A stretch of 64,000 nt of DNA. Origin: Micromonospora sp. ALFpr18c. GTDB taxonomy: Bacteria; Actinomycetota; Actinomycetes; Mycobacteriales; Micromonosporaceae. The first letter of the stretch is position 1, and every line of letters starts with the position of its first letter. A program made the position numbers and the translations under genes. Below the pieces are notes generated by a model, which worked only from the letters and a program-made list of their open reading frames with translations, was not told where the DNA came from and ran no database searches. The stretch is from NCBI RefSeq assembly GCF_008868155.1, contig NZ_WBKR01000004.1, forward strand, positions 1 to 64,000, written 5' to 3'. Below are positions 2,182-37,209 of the stretch, piece by piece.

Positions 2182-2442
2182 GGGTCACCCCTCACTGACC
2201 ACGGGTCGTCTGCGCGTGCTGACACACACATCGCCCGCAGGATCCGATGTCGTCCGGCGCTCATCGTCCAACCGGCCGGGAGACGGCGGCAACTTCCCGA
2301 TTGCCCACCGCCAACCGATGGTGCCGCCCGTCGGCCGGACGGCTGCCGGCCTGCGCACTGCAGGAGAAGCCGGGCCGGCGCGGTGTCGGCATCCTGATCA
2401 CCAGACCGACCGGAGCCATCCCGTGTGCCCAAGGAGGACCCT

Positions 2443-9511: not shown

Positions 9512-11683
9512 ATGCGCGTAGTCGCATCCGGCCGGCGTGGTCGGGCCCGATCAACCAGGGCGGCCCAGGCCGCGGTCGTCGCTCTCGTGGTGGCCGCCGG
9601 GGTGGGGCTGAGCGGTCCTGCCCAGGCCGGCGCCACCCGTTCGGACCGGATCCTCGGCCTGTGGGAGGTGCAGAGCATCGACGGGTACGGCAACAACCGG
9701 GCCAACCCCAGCTGGGGGAAGATCGACACCATCTATCCCCGGGTCGGACCGGCCTGGTACGCCGACGGCATCAGCGAGATCGTCGACCTGCCGCCCGAGC
9801 GGTACGTCAGCAACCGGATCTTCAACGACGCCGACGTGAACATCTACTCGCCGAACGCGGTGAGCCAGTGGGGGTTCGTGTGGGGTCAGTTCGTCGACCA
9901 CACCATCGCTCAGCGGCTCGGCCGGCGGCTGGTCAGCCCTCCGGGTGAGACCCGCAACATCCCGTTCGACAACAACGATCCGATGGAGTCGTTCCGCAAC
10001 GACATCGGCATCGTCCCGTTCGACCGGTCCCGGCCGGCCGACGACACCGGCGTCACCACGCCCCGGGAGCAGATCAACACCGTCAGCTCCTACCTCGACG
10101 CGGCCACCGTCTACAGCAACAGCAACGAACGGCTGGACTGGATGCGCGAGGGCGCCGTCGACGGCGACGTGCGCAACAACAAGGCCACGCTGCTGATGCC
10201 CGGTGGCTACCTGCCCCGGCGCGACACCCGGGGGGACGCCGCCACCGCCCCGAACATGGTCGCCGGCGGGCAGCTGTTCAACACCCCGGAGAAGGCCGCG
10301 GTCGCCGGCGACCAGCGGGCCAACGAGAACCCGGCGTTGCTGGCCATCCAGACCCTTTTCGCCCGGGAGCACAACCGGATCGTCGCGCAGCTGCCGACGT
10401 GGCTCCCCGAGCAGGACCGGTTCGAGATCGCCCGAGCGGTGGTGATCGCCGAGCAGCAGCACATCACCTACACCCAGTTCCTGCCGGCGCTCGGCGTCGA
10501 CCTGCCCCGCTACACCGGCTACAAGCGCACCGTGGACGTGTCGGTGAGCAACGAGTTCGCAACCGTCGGGTACCGCGCGCACAGCCAGATCCGCGGTGAC
10601 TTCCGGCTCGAGGTGGAGGCTGGCCGTTACGACCAGCAGACCCTCGACCGGCTGCGGGAGCTGGACGTCGAGGTAACCACCGAGGGCGACACCGTCCGGC
10701 TGATGATCCCGCTCGGTGAGGACGCCTTCTTCAACCCGGACCTGTTGGAGCTGCTCGAACTCGGACCGATGCTGCACGGCGTCGGCCTGCGCCCGCAAAC
10801 CCGCAACGACGAGATGATCAGCAACATGCTGCGCAGCTTCCCGTTCTTCGTCCCCGTGCCGGGCAACCCCACCTGCGCGGACGATCCGGCTCTGCCGCCC
10901 TGCCTGCCGGGCCGCAACGATCTGGGCGCGATCGACATCGCCCGCAGCCGCGACCACGGCATGCCGAGTTACAACGACATGCGGACCGCCTACGGGCTGC
11001 CGACGAAGTCGTCGTTCGCGGCGATCACCCGGGAGTCGTCGGAGTCCTTCCCGGCCGACCCGGAGCTCACCCCCGGTGCGGAGATCGACGATCTGGACAG
11101 CCTGGACTTCACCGCCCTGTACAACGCCGCCGGGCGGCGCACCACGGCGGCGGCCGACGACGCCGTCCGCGCCGACCGTCGTACGCCGCTCGCGGCCCGG
11201 CTCAAGGCCGTGTACGGCAGTGTGGACCGGCTCGATGCGTTCGTGGGCATGATGGCCGAGCCCAACCTGCCGGGTCGGGAGTTCGGTGAGTTGCAGCTGG
11301 CCATCTGGAAAAAGCAGTTCACCGCGATGCGCGACGGGGACCGGTTCTACTACGGCAATGACCCGCTGCTGCCCCTGATCCGGGCCGCCTTCAAGATCGA
11401 CTACCGCAAGTCGCTCGGAGACATCATCGCCCTGAACACCGACATCCCCCGCTCCCGCCTGGCGGCCGACGTGTTCCGTACGCCGCAGGGCCAGCACCGG
11501 ACCGTCCGCGTACCCGGCGGCGAGAAGCTGCTGCCCGGCACCGGGACACGCAACCTGGGCATCGGCAAGGCCGGCCCGGTGAAGCCGGCGGCGGAGGCCG
11601 GGCTGCTCCCGCCGGGCCTGGCGCCGAGCGGCTCGGCGTCCCGGGCGCCCCGGCGAGGATCGCGCCGCCACAGCCGTCCGTAA
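9512..11683 (+). CDS. Secreted animal-type haem peroxidase (peroxidasin-like)
   Basis: A 723-residue protein with a signal peptide (Arg-rich start, hydrophobic AAVVALVVAAGVGLSG, then AQAGA) and a full animal haem peroxidase domain. The distal histidine is in WGQFVDHT (His130), the catalytic arginine region in LFAREHNRIV, and the proximal histidine in GYRAHSQIRGDF (His357). Later conserved segments include DIARSRDHGMPSYNDMR. It probably oxidises halides or phenolics outside the cell. The ATG at 9512 is chosen over 9506 because GGGGAGGAG overlaps the latter and is well spaced for the former. Its C-terminal 50 residues are basic and rich in Gly/Pro. It follows the SARP gene by 174 bp, but co-regulation is unproven. 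Confidence 0.9.
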   Translation: MRVVASGRRGRARSTRAAQAAVVALVVAAGVGLSGPAQAGATRSDRILGLWEVQSIDGYGNNRANPSWGKIDTIYPRVGPAWYADGISEIVDLPPERYVSNRIFNDADVNIYSPNAVSQWGFVWGQFVDHTIAQRLGRRLVSPPGETRNIPFDNNDPMESFRNDIGIVPFDRSRPADDTGVTTPREQINTVSSYLDAATVYSNSNERLDWMREGAVDGDVRNNKATLLMPGGYLPRRDTRGDAATAPNMVAGGQLFNTPEKAAVAGDQRANENPALLAIQTLFAREHNRIVAQLPTWLPEQDRFEIARAVVIAEQQHITYTQFLPALGVDLPRYTGYKRTVDVSVSNEFATVGYRAHSQIRGDFRLEVEAGRYDQQTLDRLRELDVEVTTEGDTVRLMIPLGEDAFFNPDLLELLELGPMLHGVGLRPQTRNDEMISNMLRSFPFFVPVPGNPTCADDPALPPCLPGRNDLGAIDIARSRDHGMPSYNDMRTAYGLPTKSSFAAITRESSESFPADPELTPGAEIDDLDSLDFTALYNAAGRRTTAAADDAVRADRRTPLAARLKAVYGSVDRLDAFVGMMAEPNLPGREFGELQLAIWKKQFTAMRDGDRFYYGNDPLLPLIRAAFKIDYRKSLGDIIALNTDIPRSRLAADVFRTPQGQHRTVRVPGGEKLLPGTGTRNLGIGKAGPVKPAAEAGLLPPGLAPSGSASRAPRRGSRRHSRP

Positions 11684-15041: not shown

Positions 15042-20498
<5,457 letters not shown>

Positions 20499-20695
20499 CC
20501 GACTGACCCCTTTGGTAGACCATGACCTGCGCGCCGCGAGTGGACGACTCCCGGCAGTGATCACTTTTCCGGCTGTCGGCGGGCGGCGCCATGGCGCAAT
20601 CACCGAACCAACCGGCCCTCAGTTGTAGGAACCCCACAAATGTTTTGGTCCCCGTCCGACATAAGACGAGGGTGGCACGTCTCGTGCCGAGATTG

Positions 20696-21289: not shown

Positions 21290-22108
21290 GTGAGGTTCTC
21301 AAGCGCAGTCCGCCAGGCCGGACTCGTCGCGACGATCGCCGCCCTGGCGGTCACCGCGGGATGCGCCAAGAAGGATGACAGTGAGGTCCAGGCGAACGGC
21401 GTCAAGCTGGTCCAGGCGGGCAAGCTGACCGTCTGCACCCACCTGCCGTACCCGCCGTTCCAGTCCAAGGACGCCAGCGGCAAGGTGACCGGCTTCGACG
21501 TCGACGTGATGGACCTGGTCGCCAAGGACCTGGGCGTCGAGCAGACGATCATCGACACCCCGTTCGAGGGGATCAAGTCCGGCCAGGACCTCAACACCGG
21601 CAAGTGCGACGCCGCCGCCGCCGGCATGACGATCACCGCCGAACGCCAGAAGGTGATGAACTTCTCCGACCCGTACTTCGACGCGACGCAGGCGATGCTG
21701 GTGAAGGCCGGCAAGCCGTACAAGGCGCTCGACGACCTTCGGGGCAAGAAGCTCGGCGTCCAGGCGGCCACCACCGGCCGTGACTACGCCAAGAAGTTCG
21801 AGAAGGAGAAGGGCCTGCAGATCGTCGAGTTCGAGGACCTCGCCGCCCTGCAGCAGGCCGTCGCCAACGGCCAGGTCGAGGCCGCCATCAACGACCTGCC
21901 CGTCTGGACCGAGTACCTCAAGAACAACCCGGGCGGGTTCGAGGTCGCCGCCGAGTTCGACACCGGCGAGCAGTACGGCTTCTCGGTGAAGAAGGACGGC
22001 AACCCGGAGCTGCTCAAGAAGATCAACGAGGCGCTGGCCAAGGCCAAGCAGGACGGCACGTACAACACGATCTACGAGAAGTGGATCGGCAAGCGGCCGA
22101 ACGCCTGA
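21290..22108 (+). CDS. Polar amino-acid ABC transporter substrate-binding lipoprotein
   Basis: A family-3 solute-binding protein of 272 residues. The N terminus is a lipoprotein signal (VATIAALAVTAGC lipobox, Cys near residue 25). The fold markers are KLTVCTHLPYPPFQSKD, GFDVDVMDLVAKDLG, FEGIKSGQDLNTGKCDAAAAGMTITAERQKVMNFSDPYFD and a C-terminal INEALAKAKQDGTYNTIYEKW. It probably captures glutamate, glutamine or another polar amino acid. GTG21290 is the start. It leads a three-gene operon with a permease and an ATPase; a hairpin right after it should raise its transcript level over the downstream genes. Confidence 0.93.
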   Translation: MRFSSAVRQAGLVATIAALAVTAGCAKKDDSEVQANGVKLVQAGKLTVCTHLPYPPFQSKDASGKVTGFDVDVMDLVAKDLGVEQTIIDTPFEGIKSGQDLNTGKCDAAAAGMTITAERQKVMNFSDPYFDATQAMLVKAGKPYKALDDLRGKKLGVQAATTGRDYAKKFEKEKGLQIVEFEDLAALQQAVANGQVEAAINDLPVWTEYLKNNPGGFEVAAEFDTGEQYGFSVKKDGNPELLKKINEALAKAKQDGTYNTIYEKWIGKRPNA

Positions 22109-22121
22109 TCCAGGCTCCGTG

Positions 22122-22152
22122 GGGAAGGGCGCGCGTCTCGCGCGCCCTTCCC
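22122..22152 (+). terminator. Perfect 14-bp hairpin between binding protein and permease (attenuator or mRNA stabiliser)
   Basis: GGGAAGGGCGCGCG at 22122-22135 pairs perfectly with 22139-22152 around a TCT loop. It stands 14 bp after the binding-protein stop and 33 bp before the permease start. Such intercistronic stems commonly cause partial termination or protect the upstream mRNA, giving excess binding protein over membrane parts. Confidence 0.8.
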
Positions 22153-22184
22153 GTCAGCAACCTCCGGGAAGGCAACGAGCGAAC

Positions 22185-22979
22185 GTGAAGCTGCGACGCC
22201 GCCAGCGGGAACGACTCTCCCTCGGCATCCAGTACCTGGTCTTCATCGCCGTCATCGCCGTGGTGCTCTTCGCCGCGGACTGGGGCCGGCTGAGCGACGC
22301 GTTCTTCCGCGTCGACATCATCAGGTCGATGTTCCCGACGATCATCACCGTCGCGCTGCGCAACACCGTCCTCTACACGCTGGGCGCGTTCGCCTTCGGT
22401 CTCGTGTTCGGCACCGTCCTCGCGCTGATGCGGCTGTCCCGGGTGGCGCCGTACCGCTGGGTGGCGACGGCGTACATCGAGCTGTTCCGGGGTCTGCCCG
22501 CTCTGCTGGTGCTGTTCCTCGTCGGCTACGGCATCCCGATCGCCTTCCCGGAGCGCGAGATCCCGGGCGGTGTGTTCGGTTCGATCGCGATCGGCCTCGG
22601 GTTGACCGCCGCCGCGTACATGGCGGAGACCATCCGGGCCGGCATCCAGGCCGTCCCCAAGGGTCAGATGGAGGCGGCGCGCACCCTCGGCATGTCGCAC
22701 TTCACCGCCATGCGCACGATCGTCATCCCGCAGGCGTTCCGGATCGTGATCCCGCCGCTGACCAACGAACTGATCCTGCTCACCAAGGACTCGTCGCTGG
22801 CCTACGTGCTGGGTGTGACCGCGCAGACCATCGAGATCACCAAGTTCGGTCGGGACATGCTCAACGACCGGGTGAACGCCACCCCGCTGCTGGTGGCCGG
22901 CCTCGCCTACCTGGTGATCACCCTGCCGCTGTCCCAGGTGGTACGACGCCTCGAACTCCGCTACGCCAAGGCCCGGTGA
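22185..22979 (+). CDS. Amino-acid ABC transporter permease
   Basis: A 264-residue HisM/GlnP-type inner-membrane permease. It shows the polar-amino-acid permease pattern: [35 protein letters not shown], and the EAA loop [23 protein letters not shown] that docks the ATPase. The GTG at 22185 ([12 protein letters not shown]) is preferred to an upstream frame start at 22119, which would include the hairpin. GGGAAGG lies upstream. It is the second gene of the importer operon and almost abuts the ATPase gene. Confidence 0.93.
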
Positions 22980-22984
22980 CCCGC

Positions 22985-23824
22985 ATGACGACCACGCCAT
23001 CCCGCCCCGCCGTCGAGATCCGCGACCTGCACAAGTCCTTCGGGCCGCTCGAGGTGCTCAAGGGCATCGACTTCGAGGTCGGCCAGGGCGAGGTGGTCTG
23101 CGTCATCGGACCGTCCGGCTCCGGCAAGTCCACCCTGCTGCGCTGCGTCGACCTCCTGGAGGAGCCGACCGCCGGCCGGATCTGGGTGAACGGCGTCGAG
23201 ATGACCGACCCGGACGTCGAGGTCGACGCCGTACGCCGTGGCATCGGCATGGTCTTCCAGTCGTTCAACCTGTTCCCGCACCTGACCGTGCTGAACAACC
23301 TCACCATCGCGCAGCGCCGGGTGCTGCGGCGTGGCCGTGCCGAGGCCGAGCGGATCGCGCGGGCCAATCTGGAACGCGTCGGGCTGACCGACAAGGCCGA
23401 CGCGTTCCCCGCGCAGCTCTCCGGCGGGCAGCAGCAGCGGGCGGCGATCGCCCGGTCGCTGTCGATGGAGCCGAAGCTGATGCTCTTCGACGAGCCGACC
23501 TCCGCGCTCGACCCGGAACTGGTCGGCGACGTGCTCACCGTCATGCGCAAGCTGGCCGAGGACGGCATGACGATGATGGTGGTGACCCACGAGATGGCGT
23601 TCGCCCGCGACGTCGCCGACCGGGTCGTGTTCATGGACGGTGGGGTGGTGGTCGAGCAGGGGCCGCCGCAGGAGGTGCTCGGCGCACCGAAGCACGAACG
23701 AACCCGTGCGTTCCTCTCCCGGGTCCTCGACCCGACGCGTGTCGCGCAGCTCGGTCTGCCCGACCAGTCGCCCGAGCCGCCCGAGGCCCCCGGCCTGCCG
23801 GCCGACGACCGCCACACCATCTGA
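22985..23824 (+). CDS. Amino-acid ABC transporter ATP-binding protein
   Basis: A GlnQ-type ATPase of about 279 residues that powers the importer. Motifs: Walker [13 protein letters not shown]-loop [13 protein letters not shown], signature LSGGQQQR, Walker [13 protein letters not shown] and the H-loop VVTHEM. The ATG at 22985 lies just after the permease stop; a GTG at 22976 would overlap the permease by 4 bp and is an alternative start. The C-terminal 35 residues are Pro/Glu-rich and beyond the usual family end. Confidence 0.94.
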
Positions 23825-23841: not shown

Positions 23842-24148
23842 TCCGTCCGCCGGCCTGCGTCGGCGGGCGGACGCCGCGTGCGGTGACGACGGCGACGACC
23901 TGCTGATCCCCGTGTGGGGCAGGTCGATGATCGATCGAAACACGTCGTGATGTCAAGGTAATCTTTTTGCAATAAGACCTGTACTTTCGTCGATGGATTA
24001 CATAAGTTGCTGTCATCCACCGAAAGTTCTGAGTCTTCCGAGCAAAGCCCGCGACGAGCCTCACCCTCAGTCGTGCTTCCGCCCCGTGCTCGGCGGTCGA
24101 TGCACCCTGCCCTTCGTCGCGTCTTCGCCCGGTCGGGAACGGAGACCC
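23842..24148 (+). promoter_or_regulatory. Intergenic region: hairpin, then AT-rich promoter-like stretch
   Basis: No gene is seen between 23825 and 24148. A GC-rich inverted repeat (GTCCGCCG against CGGCGGGCGGAC, about 23844-23871) likely ends the ABC operon. From about 23925 to 24040 the base composition drops sharply in GC, with runs such as AATCTTTTTGCAATAAG and GGATTACATAAG. This is the strongest promoter-like composition in the window and precedes the laccase gene. I could not assign a convincing -35/-10 pair. Confidence 0.5.
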
Positions 24149-25153
24149 ATGGACGATCATGCCGTTGGCTCCCACCGCCACCTGTCCCGCCGATCACTGA
24201 TCGCCACCGGGGCGCTCGCCGCCGGAGCGCTGGGCGCGTCCGCCCCCACGCTCGGCACCGCGTTCGGAGGCAGCCCAGCCCGGGCCGCCGCCGGCGTCAC
24301 GAAGAAGGTCACCATCTACGCGGAGCAGTTGCCCGACGGGTTGTTCGGGTACGGCCTCGCACCCGGTCAGGCCACCGTGCCCGGGCCGATCCTGGAGATG
24401 TACGAGGGTGACACGCTGGAGATCACCCTGGTCAACACCACCAACCAGCGACTGTCCATCCATCCGCACGGGGTGGACTACAGCACCGACTCGGACGGCA
24501 GTCCGTTCAACGCCTCGTTCAACAACCCCGGCGAGACCCGGACGTACGTCTGGCGCTCGCACGAGATGGTGGCCGCGGCGGGCCGGCGGTACATGCCGGG
24601 CAGCGCCGGCTACTGGCACTACCACGATCACGCGATGGGCACCGACCACGGCACCGCCGGTGTCGCGAAGGGCCTGTACGGGGCGCTGATCGTCCGGCGA
24701 CGCGGCGACATGCTGCCCGCGAAGCAGTTCACGGTCGTGTTCAACGACATGATGATCAACAACCGGATGGCACCGGACACCCCGATGTTCGAGGCGAACC
24801 TCGGCGACCGCGTGGAGTGGATCGCCATCGGGCACGGCGGCACCTTCCACACCTTCCACCTGCACGCGCACCGCTGGGCGGACAACCGCACCGGGATGCT
24901 GGAGGGCCCGAGCGATCCGAGCCTGGTGATCGACAACAAGGACCTGAACCCGGGCAGCTCGTTCGGCTTCCAGGTGCTGGCCGGGGAGGGCGTCGGCCCC
25001 GGGGCGTGGATGTACCACTGCCACGTGCAGTTCCACTCCGACGGCGGGATGGCCGGGATCTTCCTGGTGCGCAACGCCGACGGCAGCATGCCGCCCGGTG
25101 CCGAGGAGGCGATCCACCGGTTCCAGGGCCACACCCACACGCACGGAAGCTGA
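24149..25153 (+). CDS. Two-domain (small) laccase, Tat-exported multicopper oxidase
   Basis: A 334-residue secreted multicopper oxidase that oxidises phenols or metals with O2. The Tat signal HLSRRSLIATGALAAGALGA matches export of a folded copper protein. Copper motifs appear in order: SIHPHGV (HxH), WHYHDH (HxH), FHTFHLHAH (HxxHxH) and YHCHVQFHSDGGM (HCHxxxH plus axial Met). This is the two-cupredoxin-domain, trimer-forming type known in Streptomyces. The ATG at 24149 is used because it places the twin-arginine signal at the N terminus. It leads a run of four exported-protein genes on the same strand. Confidence 0.95.
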   Translation: MDDHAVGSHRHLSRRSLIATGALAAGALGASAPTLGTAFGGSPARAAAGVTKKVTIYAEQLPDGLFGYGLAPGQATVPGPILEMYEGDTLEITLVNTTNQRLSIHPHGVDYSTDSDGSPFNASFNNPGETRTYVWRSHEMVAAAGRRYMPGSAGYWHYHDHAMGTDHGTAGVAKGLYGALIVRRRGDMLPAKQFTVVFNDMMINNRMAPDTPMFEANLGDRVEWIAIGHGGTFHTFHLHAHRWADNRTGMLEGPSDPSLVIDNKDLNPGSSFGFQVLAGEGVGPGAWMYHCHVQFHSDGGMAGIFLVRNADGSMPPGAEEAIHRFQGHTHTHGS

Positions 25154-25171
25154 CCGAAAGTGGGGACGGGG

Positions 25172-28100
25172 ATGACCAGACACGTACGACGAGCCCTCGC
25201 CGCGGTAGCGGCCATCGCGACACTGATCCCGGCGACGACGGCGGCAGCCGCGCCACGACCCGTAACACCACAGTCGACGCCGCAGACGCCGACCGCGGTC
25301 CTGGTGTTCCACGGGCCGGTGGCCGAGCAGCAGGACCCGGTTTCGCGCGCCGTGGACACCATCCGACAGCTTGCTGTCAGTAATGACATCGATGTCACGG
25401 CCACCACGGACCCGGGTGTGTTCACCGCGGCCGGGCTGTCCGCGTACCGCAGCGTGGTGTTTCTCTCCGCGACGGGCGCCGCGCTCAACCGCGACCAGGA
25501 GTCGGCGCTGCAGAGCTACATGAAGGCAGGCGGAGGGTTCGTCGGCATCGCCGACGCGGCCCGCGCCCAGGTCGACTCCACCTGGTTCACCGGCCTGATC
25601 GGCACCCGCCCGGCGGGTGCCATCCCGGTCGCCGAACCGGTGGCCCGGGTGACCGCCAGCGGCGAGAACGGGCCCAACGAGACCAAGGAGAAGCTCACCG
25701 ACGGTGACGCCAACACCAAGTGGCTGGTCCGCACCCCGACGGCCTGGGTGGCGTACGAGTTGGCCGCCGCCAAGCGGATCACCGGGTACGCGCTGACGTC
25801 GGCCAACGACTCCGCCGGGCGTGACCCGAAGGACTGGACCCTGCAGGGCTCCACCGACGGACAGAACTGGTCCGATCTGGACCGACGCACCGGGCAGACC
25901 TTCCCGGACCGGTTCCAGACCCGCCGGTTCGACATCGCCACGCCACAGGAGTTCACCCGTTACCGGCTCACCATCACCGCGAACAGCGGTGAGCCGCTGG
26001 CCCAGCTCGCCGACCTGCGCCTGTTCACGGGCAGCACCACCGCACCGCCGGCGCCCGCCGTGAACCGCGCGGTCGTCGACATCCTGGACCGCGAACACCC
26101 GGCCACGGCGTCGCTGCCGCTGACCGTCACCCGGTCGGACCGCTGGGAGAACTGGGACCCGAACCCGATCGGCACCGTGCACACCCTGGCGCAGGTGCAG
26201 GAGCGGCACTACGACCCGGGTCCGGCCGCGAACGGCCCGTTCCACCCGGTGTCCTGGTGCCGGGACTACGACGGCGGCCGGTCGTTCTACACCGGCATGG
26301 GTCACACCGAGGGCAGCTACGGCGAGGAGGCGTTCCGCACCCACCTGGCCGGCGCCCTCAACTGGACCACCGGCCGGGTACGCGGCGACTGCCAGGCGAC
26401 GATCGCCGCGAACTACAAGGTGGAGCGGCTCACCGCGGCCAACCAGACCGGGCAGCTGGACCAGATCGGCGAGCCGCACGGGCTCACCATCGCCCCGGAC
26501 GGCACGGTGTTCTACGTCGGCAAGGCGGCCTGCCCGAGCGGCCCGGTCGCGGACTGGAACAACCCGAACGTCGGCCTCGGCTGCGGCACCATCCACTCCT
26601 GGGATCCGCGCAGCAAGCAGGTCAAGCTCCTCACCACCCTCAAGGTGATGGGCAACCGGGGCAGCGGCTCCGAGTTGGTCAAGAACGAGGAGGGCCTGCT
26701 CGGCATCGTGCCCGACCCCGCGTTCGCCGACAACGGCTGGCTCTACGTCTACTGGATGCCGCACGAGTCGATCGACCGGGTGAAGCGGGTCGGGCAGCGC
26801 ACCATCTCCCGGTTCACCTACGACCGCACGACGCAGACCATCGACCAGGCCACCCGCAAGGATCTGCTGCAGTTCCCGGTGCAGATCCACAGTTGCTGCC
26901 ACGCCGGCGGCGGCATGGCGTTCGACGCCCAGGGCAACCTCTACGTCGGCTCCGGCGACAACAACTCCTCCGAGGGATCGGAGGGCTACTCCGGCAACAA
27001 CTGGACCGAGGAGTACCAGGGGATCTCGTTCCAGGACGCCCGGCGTACCTCGGGCAACACCAACGACCTGGCCGGCAAGATCATCCGGATCCACCCGGAG
27101 GCGGACGGGACGTACACCATCCCGGAGGGCAACCTGTTCCCACCGGGCACCGAGAAGACCCGACCGGAGATCTACGTGATGGGCGTGCGCAACATCGCCC
27201 GCCTGCAGATCGACCCGGTGCACCAGTGGCTCACCGCCGGCTGGGTCGGCCCGGACGCGTCGACGCCCAGCCCCACCCTGGGTCCGGCCAAGTACGAGAC
27301 CGCCACCATCATCACGTCCGCCGGCAACCAGGGCTGGCCGTACTGCATGGGCAACCGGCAGCCGTACCGCGACCGCAGCAACACCGACGCGAAGGTGCTG
27401 ACCGGCTGGTACGACTGCGACAACCTCCGGAACACCTCACCGCGGAACACCGGTCTGGAGGACATCCCGGCGGCCCGGGACAACATGATCTGGTACTCGC
27501 CGGGCGGCGGCGGGCCGGTGTTCCCGAAGCGGACCGACGGCAGCGGCCTCCCGACGTACGTCGCCGCGGACGCCACCTACACCCAGCCGTACCTGCGCGG
27601 CGGCGGGCAGGCCATCATGTCCGGCCCCACCTACCACCGGGACCTCGTCGACACCGACAGCGGCGTGGCGTGGCCGGAGCACTGGGACGGCAAGTGGCTC
27701 ATCGGCGACCAGTCGAACCCCGCCAACCGGGTCGCGGTCACCGTCGACGAGGCCGGCGTGCCACAGGCCGCCCCACCGGTGTACGCCGAGTCGCTGCGGG
27801 CCATCATCCCCAGCGGCAACGGTGACAACCGGCTGCAGAGCTGGATGGACGCCAAGTTCGGCCCGGACGGCGCGCTCTACCTGCTGGACTACGGAGGCGG
27901 GTTCTTCAGCCTGCACCCCAACCAGAAGCTGATCCGGATCACGTACACCGGCGGCGCGCCCACGCCGGCACCGGCCGCGACCTCGGTGGCCGTCCAGAAC
28001 AAGCCGTTGACCATCGCCTTCACCGGCTCCCGATCCGGCGGCGTCAGCTACCGGTGGGAGTTCGGCGACGGCGCCACCTCCACCGAGGCGAACCCCCGGC

Positions 28101-29104
28101 ACACGTACGCCCGGGTCGGCACCTACACCGCGAAGCTCACCGTCACGTACGCCGACGGCGAGACGGCCACGGTGCAGACCGCCGTCACCGTGGGCTGCGC
28201 GGTGCCGGACGCCCGGCAGAACGTGTGGCTCGGCGACACCGACACCGGGGTGCCCAGCCGCACGGTCGGGCAGGGGTGCACCGTCAACGACCTGCTCGAC
28301 GACGAGAGCACCTGGGCCGATCACAACAGTTTCGTCCGGCACGTGACCGCGGTGACCCGCGCGTTGCAGGACGACGACCTGCTGACGGCCCGCGAGGTCG
28401 GCACGCTCACCCGCCTGGCCGCCGCGTCCGACATCGGCCGCGACGGTCGCACCGGCTACGAGCCACTCTTCGACGGCACCGCCGAGTCGCTGCTCGGTTG
28501 GCAGCAGGCGCCATCCGGGTCGTTCAGCATCCAGCCGGACGGCGCGCTGCGCTCCAGCGGTGGTCTGGGCATGCTCTGGCACACCAGGGAGTTCGGGGAC
28601 TTCTCGCTGAAGGTGCAGTTCAAGGACATTGCGCCGGGCACCGGCCGGGCCAACACCGGCGTCTTCACCCGCTTCCCGGATCCGCGGATCCCCCTGGAGC
28701 AGCGGCCACCGGGCAGTTGCGGCACGGTCGGCTCGGCCCGCACCTCCCAGGCGTGGGTGGCGATCTACTGCGGACACGAGATCCAGATCTACGACGGTGA
28801 CACCGGCGAGCCGCAGAAGACCGGCTCGGTCTACAACTTCGACCCGGTGCCGCTCGCCCAGGCCGGTGTCACCCCGAAGGGGCAGTGGAACGACTACGAG
28901 ATCCGCGTGGTCGGGCAGCACTACACGATGATCCGCAACGGCGTGGTGATCAACGAGTTCGACAACACGCCGGGCAAGCAGTCCTCCCGTGCCGGCGACC
29001 CGCCGACCGACCTGCGGCAGTTCCTCCGCGGCTTCATCGGCCTGCAGAACCACGGCGACAACGACCTGACCGAGTTCCGCAACGTCCGCGTGCGGGAACT
29101 CTAG
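25172..29104 (+). CDS. Secreted ThuA / discoidin / PQQ-type sugar dehydrogenase / PKD / DUF1080 fusion
   Basis: A 1310-residue exported protein with a signal peptide (ALAAVAAIATLIPATTAAAA). Domains in order: ThuA-like N half (VLVFHGPVAEQQDPV, GGGFVGIADAAR); a discoidin/F5-8C-like domain (about 165-290; KLTDGDANTKWLVR, DWTLQGSTDGQNW) inserted in ThuA; ThuA C half ending GRSFYTGMGHTEGSYGEEAFRTHLAGALNW; a sorbosone/glucose dehydrogenase beta-propeller (about 415-930; GEPHGLTIAPDG, CCHAGGGMAFDAQGNLYVGSGDNN, MGVRNIARL); a PKD domain (SYRWEFGDGATSTEANPRHTY); an unnamed module of about 75 residues (GCTVNDLLDD, SFVRHV); and a C-terminal DUF1080 lectin-like domain. It probably oxidises or binds sugars outside the cell. 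It starts 18 bp after the laccase. Confidence 0.9.
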   Translation: MTRHVRRALAAVAAIATLIPATTAAAAPRPVTPQSTPQTPTAVLVFHGPVAEQQDPVSRAVDTIRQLAVSNDIDVTATTDPGVFTAAGLSAYRSVVFLSATGAALNRDQESALQSYMKAGGGFVGIADAARAQVDSTWFTGLIGTRPAGAIPVAEPVARVTASGENGPNETKEKLTDGDANTKWLVRTPTAWVAYELAAAKRITGYALTSANDSAGRDPKDWTLQGSTDGQNWSDLDRRTGQTFPDRFQTRRFDIATPQEFTRYRLTITANSGEPLAQLADLRLFTGSTTAPPAPAVNRAVVDILDREHPATASLPLTVTRSDRWENWDPNPIGTVHTLAQVQERHYDPGPAANGPFHPVSWCRDYDGGRSFYTGMGHTEGSYGEEAFRTHLAGALNWTTGRVRGDCQATIAANYKVERLTAANQTGQLDQIGEPHGLTIAPDGTVFYVGKAACPSGPVADWNNPNVGLGCGTIHSWDPRSKQVKLLTTLKVMGNRGSGSELVKNEEGLLGIVPDPAFADNGWLYVYWMPHESIDRVKRVGQRTISRFTYDRTTQTIDQATRKDLLQFPVQIHSCCHAGGGMAFDAQGNLYVGSGDNNSSEGSEGYSGNNWTEEYQGISFQDARRTSGNTNDLAGKIIRIHPEADGTYTIPEGNLFPPGTEKTRPEIYVMGVRNIARLQIDPVHQWLTAGWVGPDASTPSPTLGPAKYETATIITSAGNQGWPYCMGNRQPYRDRSNTDAKVLTGWYDCDNLRNTSPRNTGLEDIPAARDNMIWYSPGGGGPVFPKRTDGSGLPTYVAADATYTQPYLRGGGQAIMSGPTYHRDLVDTDSGVAWPEHWDGKWLIGDQSNPANRVAVTVDEAGVPQAAPPVYAESLRAIIPSGNGDNRLQSWMDAKFGPDGALYLLDYGGGFFSLHPNQKLIRITYTGGAPTPAPAATSVAVQNKPLTIAFTGSRSGGVSYRWEFGDGATSTEANPRHTYARVGTYTAKLTVTYADGETATVQTAVTVGCAVPDARQNVWLGDTDTGVPSRTVGQGCTVNDLLDDESTWADHNSFVRHVTAVTRALQDDDLLTAREVGTLTRLAAASDIGRDGRTGYEPLFDGTAESLLGWQQAPSGSFSIQPDGALRSSGGLGMLWHTREFGDFSLKVQFKDIAPGTGRANTGVFTRFPDPRIPLEQRPPGSCGTVGSARTSQAWVAIYCGHEIQIYDGDTGEPQKTGSVYNFDPVPLAQAGVTPKGQWNDYEIRVVGQHYTMIRNGVVINEFDNTPGKQSSRAGDPPTDLRQFLRGFIGLQNHGDNDLTEFRNVRVREL

Positions 29105-29112
29105 GAGAGACG

Positions 29113-30642
29113 ATGATCCGACGACTCACGGCCGCGCTGTCGGCGCTGCTGCTCACGGTGACCCCGTTGGCCGCGACGCCCGCCACCGCCGCCCCGCGCG
29201 TCGCCGCGGACCAGGTGCTGACCTGGACCGCCGACGACGACATCACCCGCTACAAGTCCGCGCCCACCCAGGCGGTGGCCGGCGCGACCACGATCATCTG
29301 GGAGAACAGCGCGGCCACCGGCAACACCACCGGCATGCCGCACACGCTGACCTTCGACACCACCACCGAGGGCTACAACCACGACGTCACCCTGAACATC
29401 CTGGCCAGCCCGTTCGACGCCAACGACGGCCGCCACCAGGCGACCGTCACGCTGACCCCGGGCCGCTACCGCTACTTCTGCTCGATCCCCGGCCACAGCC
29501 AGATGGTCGGCGAACTGGTGGTCACCGACGGCGGCGGAGGCGGCGACACCACGCCGCCGACGGTCACCGCCGCCGTGGCCGGTGACCGCGACCAGGACGG
29601 CAACTACGTCGGCGCGGCGACGGTGACCGTCACGGCCACCGACGCCGGCTCCGGTGTGGACACCGTCGAGTACCAGGTCGACGACACCAGCTTCCAGCCG
29701 TACACGCAGCCGGTGCGGGTGACGGCGGTCGGCGACCACTCGGTGCAGTTCCGTGCCACCGACCAGGCCGGCAACACCAGCACCGTCGGCTCGGTGTCGT
29801 TCCGGATCGTCGAGCCGACCGAGGAGGACACCACCGCACCGGTGGTCACGGCCGCGCTGTCCGGTGAGAAGGACAGCGACGGCAACTACATCGGTACGGC
29901 AACCGCCACGCTGACCGCCACCGACGCCGGATCCGGCGTCGCCACCATCGAGTACGCGTTGGACGGCGCTGCCTTCAGCGCGTACACGAACCCGTTCGTG
30001 GTGACCGCGACCGGGATGCACATGCTGCACTACCGGGCGACCGATGTCGCCGGAAACACCTCGGCCGAGCAGATGGCCCACTTCACCGTCGTCGCCCCGC
30101 CGCAGGAGGACACCACGCCACCCGCGGTGTCCGCCACGGTCACCGGCGAGCGCAACGACGACGGCGCGTACGTGGTCGCCGCCACCGTCACCCTCACCGC
30201 GACCGACGCCGGCTCGGGTGTCGCATCCGTCGAGTACGCGCTCGACGCCGGGGCCTGGACCGCGTACGCCGCTCCGGTCTCCGTCCGGGCCGTCGGCGCG
30301 CACACCCTGCGGTACCGGGCGACCGACGCCGCCGGTAACGCCTCGGCCGAGCAGTCGGCGACGTTCACGGTGGTGGCCGGCGGCACCGACGCCTGCCCCG
30401 AGTCCGACACCCGGGCCACGGTGATCATCGACGGCGACGACACCGGAGTGGCCAACGCCGACACGGGTGACGGCTGCACCATCAACGATCTGATCGACGA
30501 ACACGCCGACTACCCCGGCCACGCCGACTTCGTCCGGCACGTCGAGGCGGTCACCACCGCGCTGGTGACCGGCGGAACGCTCAACAAGCGCCAGCAGGGC
30601 GCCATCGTCCGCGCCGCGGCCCGATCGGACGTCGGCGCATGA
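29113..30642 (+). CDS. Secreted cupredoxin with three OmpL47-type repeats and a shared C-terminal module
   Basis: A 509-residue exported protein. After a signal peptide (LTAALSALLLTVTPLAATPATA) comes a plastocyanin/azurin-like domain with complete type-1 copper ligands: His77 (GMPHTLTF), Cys123, His128 and Met131 (FCSIPGHSQM). Three tandem Ig-like repeats follow, each exactly 94 residues (DNA 29545-29826, 29827-30108, 30109-30390), each with TATDAGSGV and YRATDxAGN signatures. The last 75 residues (GCTINDLIDEHADYPGHADFVRHVEAV) match the unnamed module of the preceding gene. It likely shuttles electrons between extracellular partners. The start ATG follows AGGAGAG, 8 bp after the previous stop. 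Confidence 0.9.
   Translation: MIRRLTAALSALLLTVTPLAATPATAAPRVAADQVLTWTADDDITRYKSAPTQAVAGATTIIWENSAATGNTTGMPHTLTFDTTTEGYNHDVTLNILASPFDANDGRHQATVTLTPGRYRYFCSIPGHSQMVGELVVTDGGGGGDTTPPTVTAAVAGDRDQDGNYVGAATVTVTATDAGSGVDTVEYQVDDTSFQPYTQPVRVTAVGDHSVQFRATDQAGNTSTVGSVSFRIVEPTEEDTTAPVVTAALSGEKDSDGNYIGTATATLTATDAGSGVATIEYALDGAAFSAYTNPFVVTATGMHMLHYRATDVAGNTSAEQMAHFTVVAPPQEDTTPPAVSATVTGERNDDGAYVVAATVTLTATDAGSGVASVEYALDAGAWTAYAAPVSVRAVGAHTLRYRATDAAGNASAEQSATFTVVAGGTDACPESDTRATVIIDGDDTGVANADTGDGCTINDLIDEHADYPGHADFVRHVEAVTTALVTGGTLNKRQQGAIVRAAARSDVGA
29545..30390 (+). repeat. Three in-register 282-bp coding repeats
   Basis: The cupredoxin gene holds three consecutive units of exactly 282 bp (94 codons) starting at 29545, 29827 and 30109, each beginning GACACCAC. 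They encode the Ig-like repeats. The identical length without indels suggests fairly recent duplication or strong structural constraint. Confidence 0.85.
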
Positions 30643-30674
30643 GTCCTCGAATCTCACCGACAGGGAGTACCACG

Positions 30675-31652
30675 ATGCCCGGACGTACCGTCGCCAAGCT
30701 GGCCACCGTGAGCGCCGTCGTCGCCGCCTCGGTGCTGGCCGTCGCGCCCACCGCCCACGCCGACCTGGTCACCCACTGCATCGGCACCGGCGGTGCGGTG
30801 ACCGTGCCCAACGACCTGCTCGTGCCGGCCGGCGAGTCCTGCGCGCTGACCGGCACCACGATCACCGGCAACGTCACCGTCGCCGCCGGCGCCAACCTCG
30901 TGGTCACCGGCGGGCGGGTCAGCGGCGAGGTCCGCGTCGCGGCCGACGGCTACCTCGACGCCACCGAGACGACCGTCGACGGCCAGGTGGTGCTGGCCGC
31001 CGGAGGGTACGGCGTCTTCCTCAAAGACGCCCGCACCGGTGCCGTGACCGTACGGCCGAAGGGCACCGCGACCATCGACAGCTTCCTGTTCGCCGAGGCG
31101 GCGACGATCACCGGCAACGTCACCGTCGGCGCCGGCGAGGTCCGACTCGACCGGGGCACCCAGGTGGACCGCAACGTCAGCAGCACCGGCACCTACTACA
31201 CCGACGTGCACGACTCGTTCGTCGACGGAACCCTGTCGGTGCTCAACAGCGCCACCGGCAGTGTCCTGTGCGGCAGCGCGGTCCGCGGTCGGGCCACGTT
31301 TGCCGGCAACCTGGGCGGCGTCCAACTCGGCCCGAACGGCACCCTCGACAGTTGCGCCTCCGGTGGCTACTGGGGTGCCGACGTCAGCGTCACCAACACC
31401 ATTGGCGGTGTCACCGTCGACGACAACATCATCAATGGTGGGTTGACCGTGACGGGCAACAACCCGGCCGCCCAGGTGGCCGCGAACAACCGGATCCGCG
31501 GCGGCGTGACCGGTGACCAGGCGGCCGCGACCACCAACCGGGCCGCCCGGGTTGCCGACCCGGATCGGGAGAGCGCCGGCGACGAGCGGGCGGAGGTTCG
31601 CCGGACCTCGGCCGTGCAGGCGGCCACCGAGGCGGGTGCTGCCCGGCTCTAG
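30675..31652 (+). CDS. Exported beta-helix-like repetitive protein
   Basis: A 325-residue protein with a signal peptide (VSAVVAASVLAVAPTAHA). The mature part is Gly/Val/Thr-rich with short irregular repeats (ITGNVTVAAGANLVV, SGEVRVAADGYLD, ITGNVTVGAGEVRLD), the pattern of a right-handed parallel beta-helix. Two or more cysteines (HCIG, SCALTG, VLCGSAV, DSCASGG) suit disulfides outside the cell. The C-terminal 60 residues are Ala/Arg/Glu-rich and probably disordered. I chose ATG30675 over the overlapping ATG30639 because GGGAG lies seven bases before it. It is the last gene of the laccase island; function unknown, possibly a surface scaffold. Confidence 0.75.
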   Translation: MPGRTVAKLATVSAVVAASVLAVAPTAHADLVTHCIGTGGAVTVPNDLLVPAGESCALTGTTITGNVTVAAGANLVVTGGRVSGEVRVAADGYLDATETTVDGQVVLAAGGYGVFLKDARTGAVTVRPKGTATIDSFLFAEAATITGNVTVGAGEVRLDRGTQVDRNVSSTGTYYTDVHDSFVDGTLSVLNSATGSVLCGSAVRGRATFAGNLGGVQLGPNGTLDSCASGGYWGADVSVTNTIGGVTVDDNIINGGLTVTGNNPAAQVAANNRIRGGVTGDQAAATTNRAARVADPDRESAGDERAEVRRTSAVQAATEAGAARL

Positions 31653-33056: not shown

Positions 33057-34724
33057 ATGCCCGCGATGAAGAAGACCAGAACCGCGCCGCGCCGCCTCGA
33101 TCAGGCGTGGACCCGCGGCGTTGAGCCGTCCGGTATCGACGATTTCGCCGCCGCCGAGTACGGGAAGCTGTTCGCGTCCTTTGCTGTGGACACCGACGGC
33201 ACGGTCGCGGTGACCGAACTCGTGGACCGGCTGCGCGTTGCGGGCATCTCCGAGACGGACCCGCGCCTGGTCGAGGTGCGGGCCGCCACCAGCGCCGACG
33301 GTCGGGCGCGGATCGATCTGGCCGGCTTCATCGCGCTGTGCAGGACGGGTGGCGGTGTCATCGAGAGGTCACTTCGCGGGGACCTCGTCATTCCGGACTT
33401 CGCCGCGTTGCAGACGGAGATATTCGCGATCTTCGAGGGCCTCCGGGATGTCGAGGATGGGCGGGTCGCCGACTACATCCCGCAGTTGGGCCGGGTGGAT
33501 CCGGAGAAGTTCGGCATCGCGTTGTGCACCACCGACGGCCAGCGCGCCGCGGTGGGGGACGCGGAGACCCCGTTCTGCGTCCAGTCGGTCTGCAAGCCGA
33601 TCAACTACTGTCTCGCGCTGGAGCAGCACGGTGCCGAACAGGTGCACCGGCACGTCGGGCGGGAGCCCAGCGGTCGCGGGTTCAACGAGTTGACGTTGAA
33701 CAACGAGGGGCTTCCGCACAACCCGATGATCAATTCTGGGGCGATCATGTGTTGTTCGCTGCTGCGCCCCAGTTGGGAGATGGCCGACCGTTTCGACCAC
33801 GTGGCCGAGACGTGGCGCCGGTTGGCCGGGGGCGGGACGGTCGGTTTCAACAATGCCGTCTATCTCTCGGAACGGCGTTCGGCGGATCGGAACTTCGCTC
33901 TCGGGTACTTCATGCGCGAGCACCAGGCCTTTCCGGACGGGACCGACCTCACCGAGACGCTGGAGTTCTACTTCCAGTGCTGTTCCATCGAGGTCGACGC
34001 CCGGTCGTTGTCGGTCGTGGCCGCCTCGCTCGCCAACGGTGGTGTCAATCCCCTCACCCGGGAGCGGATCTTCTCCGCCGACACCGCGCGCAAGTGTCTG
34101 TCGCTGATGTCCTCGTGCGGGATGTACGACTATTCCGGTGAGTTCGCCTTCACCATCGGCCTGCCGGCGAAGAGCGGCGTCTCCGGCGGACTCATGATCG
34201 TGGTTCCCGGCGTGATGGGCATCTGCGTCTGGTCGCCGCGCCTCGACGCGCTCGGCAACTCCGTCCGGGGGGTCGCGTTCTGCAAGGAACTGATCAACCG
34301 GTTCAACTTCCACGTCTACGACTCGTTGGCCGCCGGCGAGGACTCCGGCAAGCGCGATCCGCGGCGCGGGAGGAACGAGGACGAGGTGGGGTCGACCACG
34401 CGGTTGCTCTGGGCCGCCAGTCACGGCGATCTGGAGTACGTCCGGCTCGCGCTCGCGGCGGGGAAGGATCCGAACTCCGCCGACTACGACCGGCGGACCG
34501 CGCTGCACCTCGCGGCCTCCGACGGAAACCTCGACGTGGTCCAGTACCTCCTGGACCGCGGGGCCGATCCGACGCTGCGGGACCGTTGGGGAGGCACCGC
34601 GCTCTCCGACGCCGAGCGAGGAGCACATGACAACGTTGTCACCGTGCTCACCTCGACGCTGGGCGAAAGCCGGGCGTCAGCCACCCACCTCCTACGAACC
34701 GACGAGCCGCTCGCGGCGGTCTGA
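33057..34724 (+). CDS. Glutaminase with animal-type architecture (N-terminal helical domain, glutaminase, ankyrin)
   Basis: A 555-residue enzyme converting glutamine to glutamate and ammonia. The N terminus (about 30-105) resembles the EF-hand-like helical domain of animal glutaminases, with LRVAGISETDPRLVEV. The catalytic core (about 115-425) has VADYIPQLGRV (catalytic Tyr), FCVQSVCKPINYC (nucleophile Ser and Lys of SxxK), EPSGRGFNELTLN, HNPMINSGAI, SCGMYDYSGEFAF and PAKSGVSGG. The C terminus has ankyrin repeats (DYDRRTALHLAASDGNLDVVQYLLDRGADP). This order is that of human kidney glutaminase; ordinary bacterial GlsA has only the core. It heads a run with GSII and Amt. Confidence 0.94.
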   Translation: MPAMKKTRTAPRRLDQAWTRGVEPSGIDDFAAAEYGKLFASFAVDTDGTVAVTELVDRLRVAGISETDPRLVEVRAATSADGRARIDLAGFIALCRTGGGVIERSLRGDLVIPDFAALQTEIFAIFEGLRDVEDGRVADYIPQLGRVDPEKFGIALCTTDGQRAAVGDAETPFCVQSVCKPINYCLALEQHGAEQVHRHVGREPSGRGFNELTLNNEGLPHNPMINSGAIMCCSLLRPSWEMADRFDHVAETWRRLAGGGTVGFNNAVYLSERRSADRNFALGYFMREHQAFPDGTDLTETLEFYFQCCSIEVDARSLSVVAASLANGGVNPLTRERIFSADTARKCLSLMSSCGMYDYSGEFAFTIGLPAKSGVSGGLMIVVPGVMGICVWSPRLDALGNSVRGVAFCKELINRFNFHVYDSLAAGEDSGKRDPRRGRNEDEVGSTTRLLWAASHGDLEYVRLALAAGKDPNSADYDRRTALHLAASDGNLDVVQYLLDRGADPTLRDRWGGTALSDAERGAHDNVVTVLTSTLGESRASATHLLRTDEPLAAV

Positions 34725-35874: not shown

Positions 35875-37209
35875 ATGGAGTACATCTCGATGCCAGACGG
35901 CTTCGACGCGGGTGATACCGCATTCGTGCTGATCAGCGCCGCGCTGGTCATGCTGATGACCCCGGGCCTGGCGTTCTTCTACGGCGGCATGGTTCGCGTG
36001 AAGAGCGTGCTCAACATGCTGCTGATGAGCTTCATCAGCCTGGGCATCGTCAGCGTGCTCTGGGTGACCTACGGATACTCGCTCGCCTTCGGTGAGGACG
36101 TCGGTGGCAGTGGGCTCGTCGGTGACCTGGCCAACGTGGGTATGAGCGGAATCTCGGACACCACGTTGACGGGCAGCATTCCGGTGCTCGCCTTCGCGGT
36201 CTTCCAGATGATGTTCGCCGTCATCACGCCGGCGCTGATCAGCGGGGCGATCGCCGACCGTGCCAAGTTCGGTGCGTGGATGCTGTTCGTCGCGCTCTGG
36301 GTGACCGTGGTGTACTTCCCGGTGGCCCACTGGGTGTGGCAGGCCGACGGCTGGATCTTCAAGCTCGGCGTGAAGGACTTCGCCGGAGGCACGGCGGTCC
36401 ACATCAACGCCGGCATGGCCGCCCTCGGCGCGCTTCTGGTCCTCGGCAACCGGGTCGGCTTCCGGCGGGAGTCGATGCGGGCGCACAGCCTGCCGCTCGT
36501 GATGCTCGGCTCGGGCCTGCTGTGGTTCGGGTGGTTCGGCTTCAACGCCGGATCGGCCCTCGCCGCGAACGGCACCGCCAGCGTCGCCTTCATGAACACC
36601 CAGGTCGCGGCCGGTGCCGGCATGATCGGTTGGCTCGTCTGGGAGCGCGTACGCAAGGGTGGCTTCACCTCCCTGGGCGCCGCGTCGGGTGCGGTCGCCG
36701 GTCTGGTGGCCATCACCCCGGCCTGCGCGGTCGTGAACACCTGGGGTGCGATCGCCATCGGTGTCATCGCCGGCGTCGTCTGCGCCTGGGCCGTCAGCCT
36801 GAAGGACCGGTTCGGCTACGACGACTCGCTGGACGTCGTGGCGGTGCACGCGGTCGGCGGTTTCGTGGGCACGCTCCTCATCGGAGTGTTCGACACCACG
36901 GACGGCCTCGTCGCCGGTGCCGGTGCCGAGCAGTTGCTCAAGCAGGCGGTCGGTGCCTTCGCCGTCGCCGCGTACTCGGTCGCACTGACGTGGCTGCTCG
37001 TCAAGATCATTGACATGACGATCGGCTTCCGGGTGCGGCGGGAGGACGAGGTCAGCGGCATCGACCAGATCCTGCACGCGGAGAGCGCCTACGACTTCGA
37101 CACGAGCAAGGTGCACACCGCCCCCGCCGGCTCGACCGCCGACCGGGCGCAGGACAAGACCGCTCAGCACCAGATCAGCGGTGTCGTCAACGGTCCGTAC
37201 ACCCGCTGA
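35875..37209 (+). CDS. amtB: Ammonium transporter (Amt/AmtB family)
   Basis: A 444-residue, roughly 11-helix ammonium channel. Typical features are the N-terminal LISAALVMLMTPGLAFFYGGMV, the first pore histidine in VYFPVAHWVW, the second in LDVVAVHAVGGFVGTLL, and FNAGSALAANG. The C-terminal tail is longer than usual (about 45 residues after EDEVSGIDQILHAESAYDFD). The start ATG at 35875 has no strong Shine-Dalgarno; an ATG at 35890 (MPDGFDAG) is an alternative that matches the family N terminus better. It imports ammonium for the preceding glutamine synthetase. No glnK/PII gene follows here. Confidence 0.95.
   Translation: MEYISMPDGFDAGDTAFVLISAALVMLMTPGLAFFYGGMVRVKSVLNMLLMSFISLGIVSVLWVTYGYSLAFGEDVGGSGLVGDLANVGMSGISDTTLTGSIPVLAFAVFQMMFAVITPALISGAIADRAKFGAWMLFVALWVTVVYFPVAHWVWQADGWIFKLGVKDFAGGTAVHINAGMAALGALLVLGNRVGFRRESMRAHSLPLVMLGSGLLWFGWFGFNAGSALAANGTASVAFMNTQVAAGAGMIGWLVWERVRKGGFTSLGAASGAVAGLVAITPACAVVNTWGAIAIGVIAGVVCAWAVSLKDRFGYDDSLDVVAVHAVGGFVGTLLIGVFDTTDGLVAGAGAEQLLKQAVGAFAVAAYSVALTWLLVKIIDMTIGFRVRREDEVSGIDQILHAESAYDFDTSKVHTAPAGSTADRAQDKTAQHQISGVVNGPYTR

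Follow-up and report, generated by a model that had tools for sequence, protein, structure and literature searches.

A stretch of 64,000 nucleotides from a Micromonospora-like genome of 6.7 Mb (Micromonospora sp. ALFpr18c, contig NZ_WBKR01000004.1, positions 1-64000; hereafter the window) contains four plus-strand genes in line between 24149 and 31652. The first three encode a small laccase, a fusion protein with a ThuA domain and a GSDH-like propeller, and a cupredoxin followed by OmpL47 repeats. These three proteins are near-obligate parts of a conserved actinobacterial system, and their linkage is far stronger and wider than was claimed in a preliminary description of this DNA, whose premise of a pyrroloquinoline quinone (PQQ) enzyme is weak. 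A 3-keto-disaccharide hydrolase (DUF1080) domain in the fusion protein, missed at that time, is the best clue to the chemistry. It is tentatively proposed that the genes encode a secreted 3-keto-glycoside system, in which a glycan would be oxidised and then cleaved by DUF1080 while the electrons travel via the cupredoxin to the laccase and O2. This reading may well be correct but falls a little short of being probable. A search with the fusion protein gave M. parastrephiae and M. orduensis as the closest named relatives.

Linkage of the genes across genomes

A scan with the fusion protein yielded 80 loci. The laccase gene is adjacent in 78 of them and the cupredoxin gene in 77, each across 24 genera, and the exact order laccase-fusion-cupredoxin on a single strand is found in 67. 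A 4-bp overlap between the laccase gene and the fusion gene is seen in 15 loci. The gene counts at the loci were taken from the frames around tblastn matches, since GC-based gene calling overlooked overlapping starts and gave too few laccases. In several genera the order is changed but the linkage is kept, with a divergent cupredoxin gene in Streptomyces and Peterkaempfera, a divergent laccase gene in Microbispora and a downstream laccase gene in Planosporangium. The exceptions are one locus without the cupredoxin gene (L071), one without the laccase and cupredoxin genes (L084) and one in which neither is seen and the contig begins at the fusion (L081).

Since these loci were collected by means of the fusion protein, the genes were also counted in genome samples drawn without regard to the cluster. 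In an order sample of 101 genomes (cut-offs E <= 1e-60 for the laccase, 1e-150 for the fusion and 1e-60 for the cupredoxin), all three genes are present in the same eight genomes and none in the other 93. Shared ancestry inflates such co-occurrence counts, and the chance figure of about 5e-12 for 8 of 101 genomes ignores it and is not used as a probability. Within the window's own genus, all three genes are present in two of ten genomes and absent from the other eight, so the block is gained or lost as a whole. Together, the changed gene orders and this block-wise absence within a genus argue for a functional link between laccase, fusion and cupredoxin. In a class sample of 346 genomes, the counts are nested: 46 genomes have the laccase, 45 of these (all but G152) the propeller protein, and 43 the cupredoxin. 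As scoring was confined to a few first-look candidates per genome, single-genome absences such as that in G152 are uncertain. Every cupredoxin genome has the laccase, and in 41 of the 43 both lie within 8 kb on the same contig.

The preliminary description called for a co-occurrence search with all four genes. Linkage as described holds for three of them; the beta-helix gene follows the cupredoxin gene in 49 of the 80 loci (13 genera) and is absent from the other 31. Its product is therefore an optional part and not the required scaffold that had been suggested. Clustering of the flanks for further obligate genes returned, besides a PF01261 isomerase, only common families (ABC ATPase, ROK-like regulator).

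Gene layout and the small laccase

The four genes, whose strand, reading frames and intergenic gaps of 18, 8 and 32 bp agree with the preliminary description in an open reading frame check, are as follows:

24149..25153, plus strand: two-domain small laccase (SLAC type) with a leader of the twin-arginine translocation (Tat) type (phmmer, Pfam, copper ligands)
25172..29104, plus strand: exported fusion protein of 1310 amino acids (Pfam ThuA, F5/8C, GSDH, PKD and 3keto-disac_hyd)
29113..30642, plus strand: exported cupredoxin with three OmpL47 repeats and a module (PF00127, NF047446, type-1 copper ligands)
30675..31652, plus strand: exported beta-helix-like protein, optional part (all-strand AlphaFold2 model, weak beta-helix matches)

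Export of all four proteins had been predicted. For the laccase this is backed by a conserved pair of arginines in the leader (Arg14 in 78 and Arg15 in 79 of 79 sequences), and the leaders of the other three look Sec-like as judged by reading. The laccase of 334 amino acids has two cupredoxin domains, matches Cu-oxidase_2 and Cu-oxidase_3 of Pfam and is closest to solved small laccases (phmmer 3t9w, E 3.1e-135). Its copper ligands are complete (the His ligands, with the type-1 Cys and Met in the C-terminal domain) and conserved over 79 sequences, the sole exception being a Gln for H157 in one. Judged by size, fold and ligands, it is an SLAC-type two-domain laccase (type B two-domain multicopper oxidase). 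For the fourth protein, neither Pfam nor NCBIfam gave a match. Its AlphaFold2 model (mean predicted local distance difference test, pLDDT, 82.6) consists almost wholly of short repeating strands, and a structural search gave no PDB match at E <= 0.001, the weak top matches being mostly beta-helices. A beta-helix fold is thus plausible on the basis of this model.

The laccases of L117 and L119 have S. coelicolor SLAC structures (the 3cg8 group) as their best PDB matches, and that of L069, from a named Streptomyces with a long fusion, is closest to 9ix9/8aip. The much-studied small laccases therefore appear to belong to the conserved gene system. Like SLAC (S. coelicolor SCO6712, PDB 3cg8; relatives 3t9w and 9ix9), the window protein is a two-domain multicopper oxidase with conserved ligands, and close relatives of 3cg8 and 9ix9 are encoded in Streptomyces-type clusters. 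However, SLAC has so far been studied as a stand-alone phenol/lignin or electrode enzyme, and gene partners go unmentioned in the passages and titles covered. According to PMC13151041, the physiological roles of two-domain oxidases are poorly understood; its main text is silent on operons, gene clusters and genomic context. Within the open-access literature (subscription journals lay outside the coverage), no paper was found tying small laccases to DUF1080, ThuA, OmpL47 or GSDH genes.

Fusion protein, cupredoxin and domain re-shuffling

The domains listed for the fusion and cupredoxin proteins in the preliminary description were recovered, but the DUF1080 domain and a module of about 80 amino acids common to both proteins had been overlooked. 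The following domains are assigned:

25283..26383, plus strand: ThuA domain, split by a discoidin domain (PF06283 in two stretches, E 9.5e-52)
about 25622-26047, plus strand: discoidin (F5/8 type C) insert in ThuA (PF00754, E 3.8e-13; phmmer 7nsn_A)
26384..27976, plus strand: GSDH-like six-bladed propeller (PF07995, E 2.7e-18)
27977..28192, plus strand: PKD domain (PF18911, E 7.2e-16)
28193..28447, plus strand: module of about 80 amino acids without family name, also on the cupredoxin protein (43% identity to 30391-30639)
28448..29101, plus strand: DUF1080 / 3-keto-disaccharide hydrolase domain (PF06439, E 5.5e-34; 3imm, E 6e-9)
30388..30639, plus strand: C-terminal module copy on the cupredoxin protein (43% identical to the module of the fusion)

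The DUF1080 domain is full length (profile positions 1-187 of 187) and scores 118.3 bits against a curated cut-off of 26.8. The ThuA domain also exceeds its Pfam cut-off (176.7 bits) despite the discoidin interruption. The His of its GIHAA motif (residue 127) is kept in 10 of 81 fusion proteins, and the window protein has Ala at this position; GIHAA or GLHAA is retained by several ThuA paralogues from the same genome. Over 22 diverse fusion proteins, the mean pairwise identity is 77% for the propeller and 76% for DUF1080. It is lower in the ThuA halves (61% and 69%), PKD (61%), discoidin (60%) and the module (55%). With the highest identities among the fusion domains, propeller and DUF1080 look like the catalytic core. 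At one locus (L058, M. parastrephiae), the fusion gene matches in two pieces with a break near residue 351 (about 10939-10941), which may be a frameshift or an assembly error.

The cupredoxin matches PF00127 (E 6.1e-5) and NF047446 (E 8.7e-81). Its type-1 copper site, described earlier as complete, is indeed so, with the ligands H77, C123, H128 and M131 present and invariant in all 78 sequences. The invariant columns of the shared module include C2, D33, L34, D36, F47, V48 and H50 (19 sequences), and a PDB search with the module gave nothing at E <= 1.

Seven clusters (L117-L123) are called Streptomyces-type here because two of their laccases (L117, L119) are nearest to the S. coelicolor SLAC structures. 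In these, a short ThuA-GSDH protein lacks discoidin, PKD and DUF1080, and the cupredoxin protein carries OmpL47 repeats, then the module, then DUF1080 (Pfam run on L119). In Micromonospora and Pseudonocardiales, module and DUF1080 are carried by the propeller protein instead. Such a swap between the propeller and cupredoxin proteins is direct fusion (Rosetta-stone) evidence, at the level of domain architecture, that propeller, cupredoxin and DUF1080 serve one function, and the re-shuffling of DUF1080 explains why the module is present on both proteins. A separate arrangement is found in L124 (G100:C9:47000-60000), where DUF1080 is present twice, next to the propeller and as part of the cupredoxin protein. 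Isomerase and laccase genes also lie on the one strand there, and a second fusion is located on another contig (L125).

Isomerase partner and 3-keto-sugar context

A PF01261 TIM-barrel gene lies immediately upstream of the laccase gene, or slightly overlaps its start, in eight Amycolatopsis loci, and its product in L051 has a Tat-like leader. Relatives are also found near the clusters in L028, L074, L117, L124 and L126. Elsewhere in the window's own genome, a PF01261-like isomerase is encoded directly beside a GSDH propeller gene (contig C156; L116:525-2839), echoing the Amycolatopsis arrangement, and on contig C46 a GSDH protein adjoins a ThuA-DUF1080 protein. As judged from these neighbourhoods, DUF1080, ThuA, GSDH and PF01261 form a recurring gene set.

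PMC9007349 describes BT2157, a DUF1080 protein, as a 3-ketotrehalose hydrolase; for CCNA_01705, encoded beside the LacABC 3-dehydrogenase, it proposes from genetics a role as periplasmic 3'-ketolactose hydrolase. The present system resembles this Caulobacter pathway in having an exported DUF1080 beside an enzyme that would make a 3-keto sugar, with sugar isomerase-type genes nearby. It differs in that the dehydrogenase of Caulobacter is the membrane-bound LacABC, whereas the candidate oxidant here is a GSDH-like propeller and the candidate acceptors are the cupredoxin and the laccase, with no membrane step.

Upstream region and neighbouring genes

Two features precede the laccase gene:

23938..24037, no strand: AT-richest 100 bp of the window (60% AT vs 51% in the next best 100-bp stretch)
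23983..24027, plus strand: conserved imperfect palindrome (ACTTTCG ... CGAAAGT) that may serve as an operator or promoter element

The first agrees with the earlier remark that the most AT-rich DNA of the window lies before the operon. In an alignment of the window with 18 upstream regions from Micromonospora, the palindrome remains recognisable, also in those with diverged flanks. A promoter scan returned a single weak site on the minus strand, which was uninformative.

Just upstream of the island, on the same strand, a complete polar amino-acid-type ATP-binding cassette (ABC) transporter is encoded (SBP_bac_3, permease and ATPase; 21290-23824). Further genes in the window include one on the minus strand (15042-20603) for a single-chain biotin carboxylase/carboxyltransferase of 1853 amino acids with an ACC_central domain; this layout of acetyl-CoA carboxylase is familiar chiefly from eukaryotes. 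A glutaminase-ankyrin repeat fusion with an EF-hand-like N-terminal stretch is encoded at 33057-34724, with an ammonium transporter gene nearby (35875-37209). A cytochrome P450 and an EryCIII-like glycosyltransferase (964-3855) may mark one end of a natural-product cluster.

Proposed mechanism and the cofactor of the propeller

From the genes, domains, copper ligands, linkage and domain re-shuffling, which are observed directly, we infer a substrate, a cofactor and an electron route. The system would act outside the membrane and degrade glycosides by way of 3-keto intermediates. The propeller would oxidise the sugar ring of a glycan or glycoside, presumably at carbon 3, and DUF1080 would cleave the resulting 3-keto-glycoside, as expected from the function of its family, with the PF01261 isomerase joining in some clusters. 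The electrons may be taken up by the type-1 copper of the cupredoxin and handed on to that of the small laccase, which would reduce O2 to water as the last step of the chain. This is the simplest model that gives every near-obligate part a job.

Comparable electron transfer pairs exist, since amicyanin accepts electrons from a quinoprotein, methylamine dehydrogenase, and pseudoazurin donates electrons to the two-domain trimeric copper enzyme NirK. As in those pairs, a cupredoxin would feed a two-domain trimeric copper enzyme or take electrons from a quinoprotein. In contrast, the terminal step here would be extracellular O2 reduction by a small laccase.

The AlphaFold2 model of the propeller (mean pLDDT 76.4) has PQQ sugar dehydrogenases as top structural matches (3a9g, Z 30.8; 3das, Z 27.9). 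The equivalents of His144, Arg228 and Asn229 of soluble glucose dehydrogenase (sGDH) are H577, R673 and N674, which are invariant in an alignment of 81 proteins. The propeller thus shares the six-bladed fold, the His base and the Arg-Asn pair with the PQQ soluble glucose/aldose dehydrogenases (1c9u, 3das, 2g8s, 3a9g; PF07995). It differs from them in an H-S-C-C-H motif at residues 573-577, in which H573, C575, C576 and H577 are invariant in the 81 proteins and the Streptomyces-type ones, and in its last blade, where the canonical GRLR..APDG is replaced by a LQSWMD..GPDG-type sequence. Seven more GSDH propeller proteins, most with ThuA, are encoded on contigs C22, C8, C158, C48, C25, C46 and C156 of the same genome (L087-L093, L110-L116). 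None of these keeps both last-blade Arg residues, and no laccase or cupredoxin gene was found among their neighbours.

Several points weigh against the proposed chain. The last-blade pair Arg406/Arg408, which holds the PQQ carboxylates in sGDH, is replaced in all 81 proteins, none having an Arg at the replacement positions as read from the sequence alignment rather than from a solved structure. In the window's own genome, no PqqE exceeds the curated cut-off, and in the class sample PqqE occurs in just 4 of 46 laccase-positive genomes vs 2 of 300 laccase-negative ones. The missing Arg pair and the lack of PqqE in 42 of the 46 positive genomes therefore make the cofactor of the electron-giving step uncertain. 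Moreover, the structural matches of the propeller also include the non-enzymatic HHIP, DUF1080 domains can hydrolyse without a redox step (PMC9007349 cites an endo-xanthanase/lichenase), and small laccases oxidise phenols directly in vitro.

The missing Arg pair, together with the absence of PqqE here and in most positive genomes, makes a dependence of the propeller on PQQ doubtful. The preliminary description had assumed a PQQ-type dehydrogenase and made its PQQ-binding residues a point to check; the GSDH fold, the catalytic His and the Arg-Asn pair are in line with it, and the last-blade Arg pair and a host PqqE are not found. PQQ synthesis by the host would be supporting evidence rather than a strict requirement. 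In a locus set, PqqE is found in 14 of 38 genomes, nearly all with the cluster. A restriction of the clusters to PQQ makers was tested and rejected, most hosts being without PqqE. If PQQ is truly used, it would usually come from outside the host.

Alternative explanations

The preliminary proposal could be kept in the form of a true PQQ sugar dehydrogenase that scavenges PQQ from neighbours and feeds the cupredoxin and the laccase. The invariant base His and Arg-Asn pair, the closest folds and the presence of PqqE in some hosts (the 4 of 46 and 14 of 38 above) are in line with this, but the loss of the Arg pair from the 81 proteins and the seven same-genome propellers, and the inability of most hosts to make PQQ, render it unlikely. 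Also unlikely is a more specific form of the 3-keto-glycoside proposal, in which the propeller is a new, PQQ-independent glycoside 3-dehydrogenase whose active site is formed around the H-S-C-C-H motif, possibly together with copper or a vicinal disulfide. In this form, the natural function of the SLAC family would lie in an extracellular, membrane-free glycan-to-O2 chain of propeller, cupredoxin and laccase. The presence of a metal or a vicinal disulfide at the motif is speculative.

An attack on lignin or phenols is somewhat less likely still. The laccase would act on phenols directly, while fusion, cupredoxin and DUF1080 release or bind lignin-carbohydrate sugars and no electron chain exists. 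Amycolatopsis and Streptomyces small laccases have been studied for lignin modification (PMC8559727, PMC5675413), and the fusion bears discoidin and PKD domains that would suit such a role. However, this leaves a type-1 cupredoxin with every ligand conserved without a role, and one two-domain oxidase was too slow for efficient lignin degradation (PMC13151041).

A non-redox glycan complex, with the propeller as a binding scaffold, DUF1080 as a plain glycosidase and cupredoxin and laccase as protection against copper or oxidants, appears improbable. It would fit the propeller fold shared with HHIP, the lost Arg pair and the plain polysaccharide hydrolase included in DUF1080 (PMC9007349). Nevertheless, no other domain is as well conserved as the propeller, all 81 proteins keep its catalytic His and H-S-C-C-H motif, and laccase and cupredoxin would not need such tight co-occurrence with it. 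Copper or iron handling, with the two copper proteins laccase and cupredoxin as cuprous or ferrous oxidases, is very improbable even though a periplasmic cupredoxin-like protein serves FtrABCD, an iron transporter encoded by four genes (PMC11966278), as the flanks within 8 kb showed no metal permease or copper regulator conserved across genera and the near-obligate partners are sugar-type domains.

Significance

Much work has been devoted to small laccases as biocatalysts and electrode enzymes, yet a recent study still describes the physiological roles of two-domain oxidases as poorly understood (PMC13151041). The near-perfect linkage identifies three partners (cupredoxin, GSDH-like propeller and 3-keto-sugar enzyme) and thereby suggests a natural role. 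If the proposed 3-keto-glycoside chain is true, it would represent O2-linked glycan oxidation outside the membrane by a propeller family whose dependence on PQQ is doubtful.

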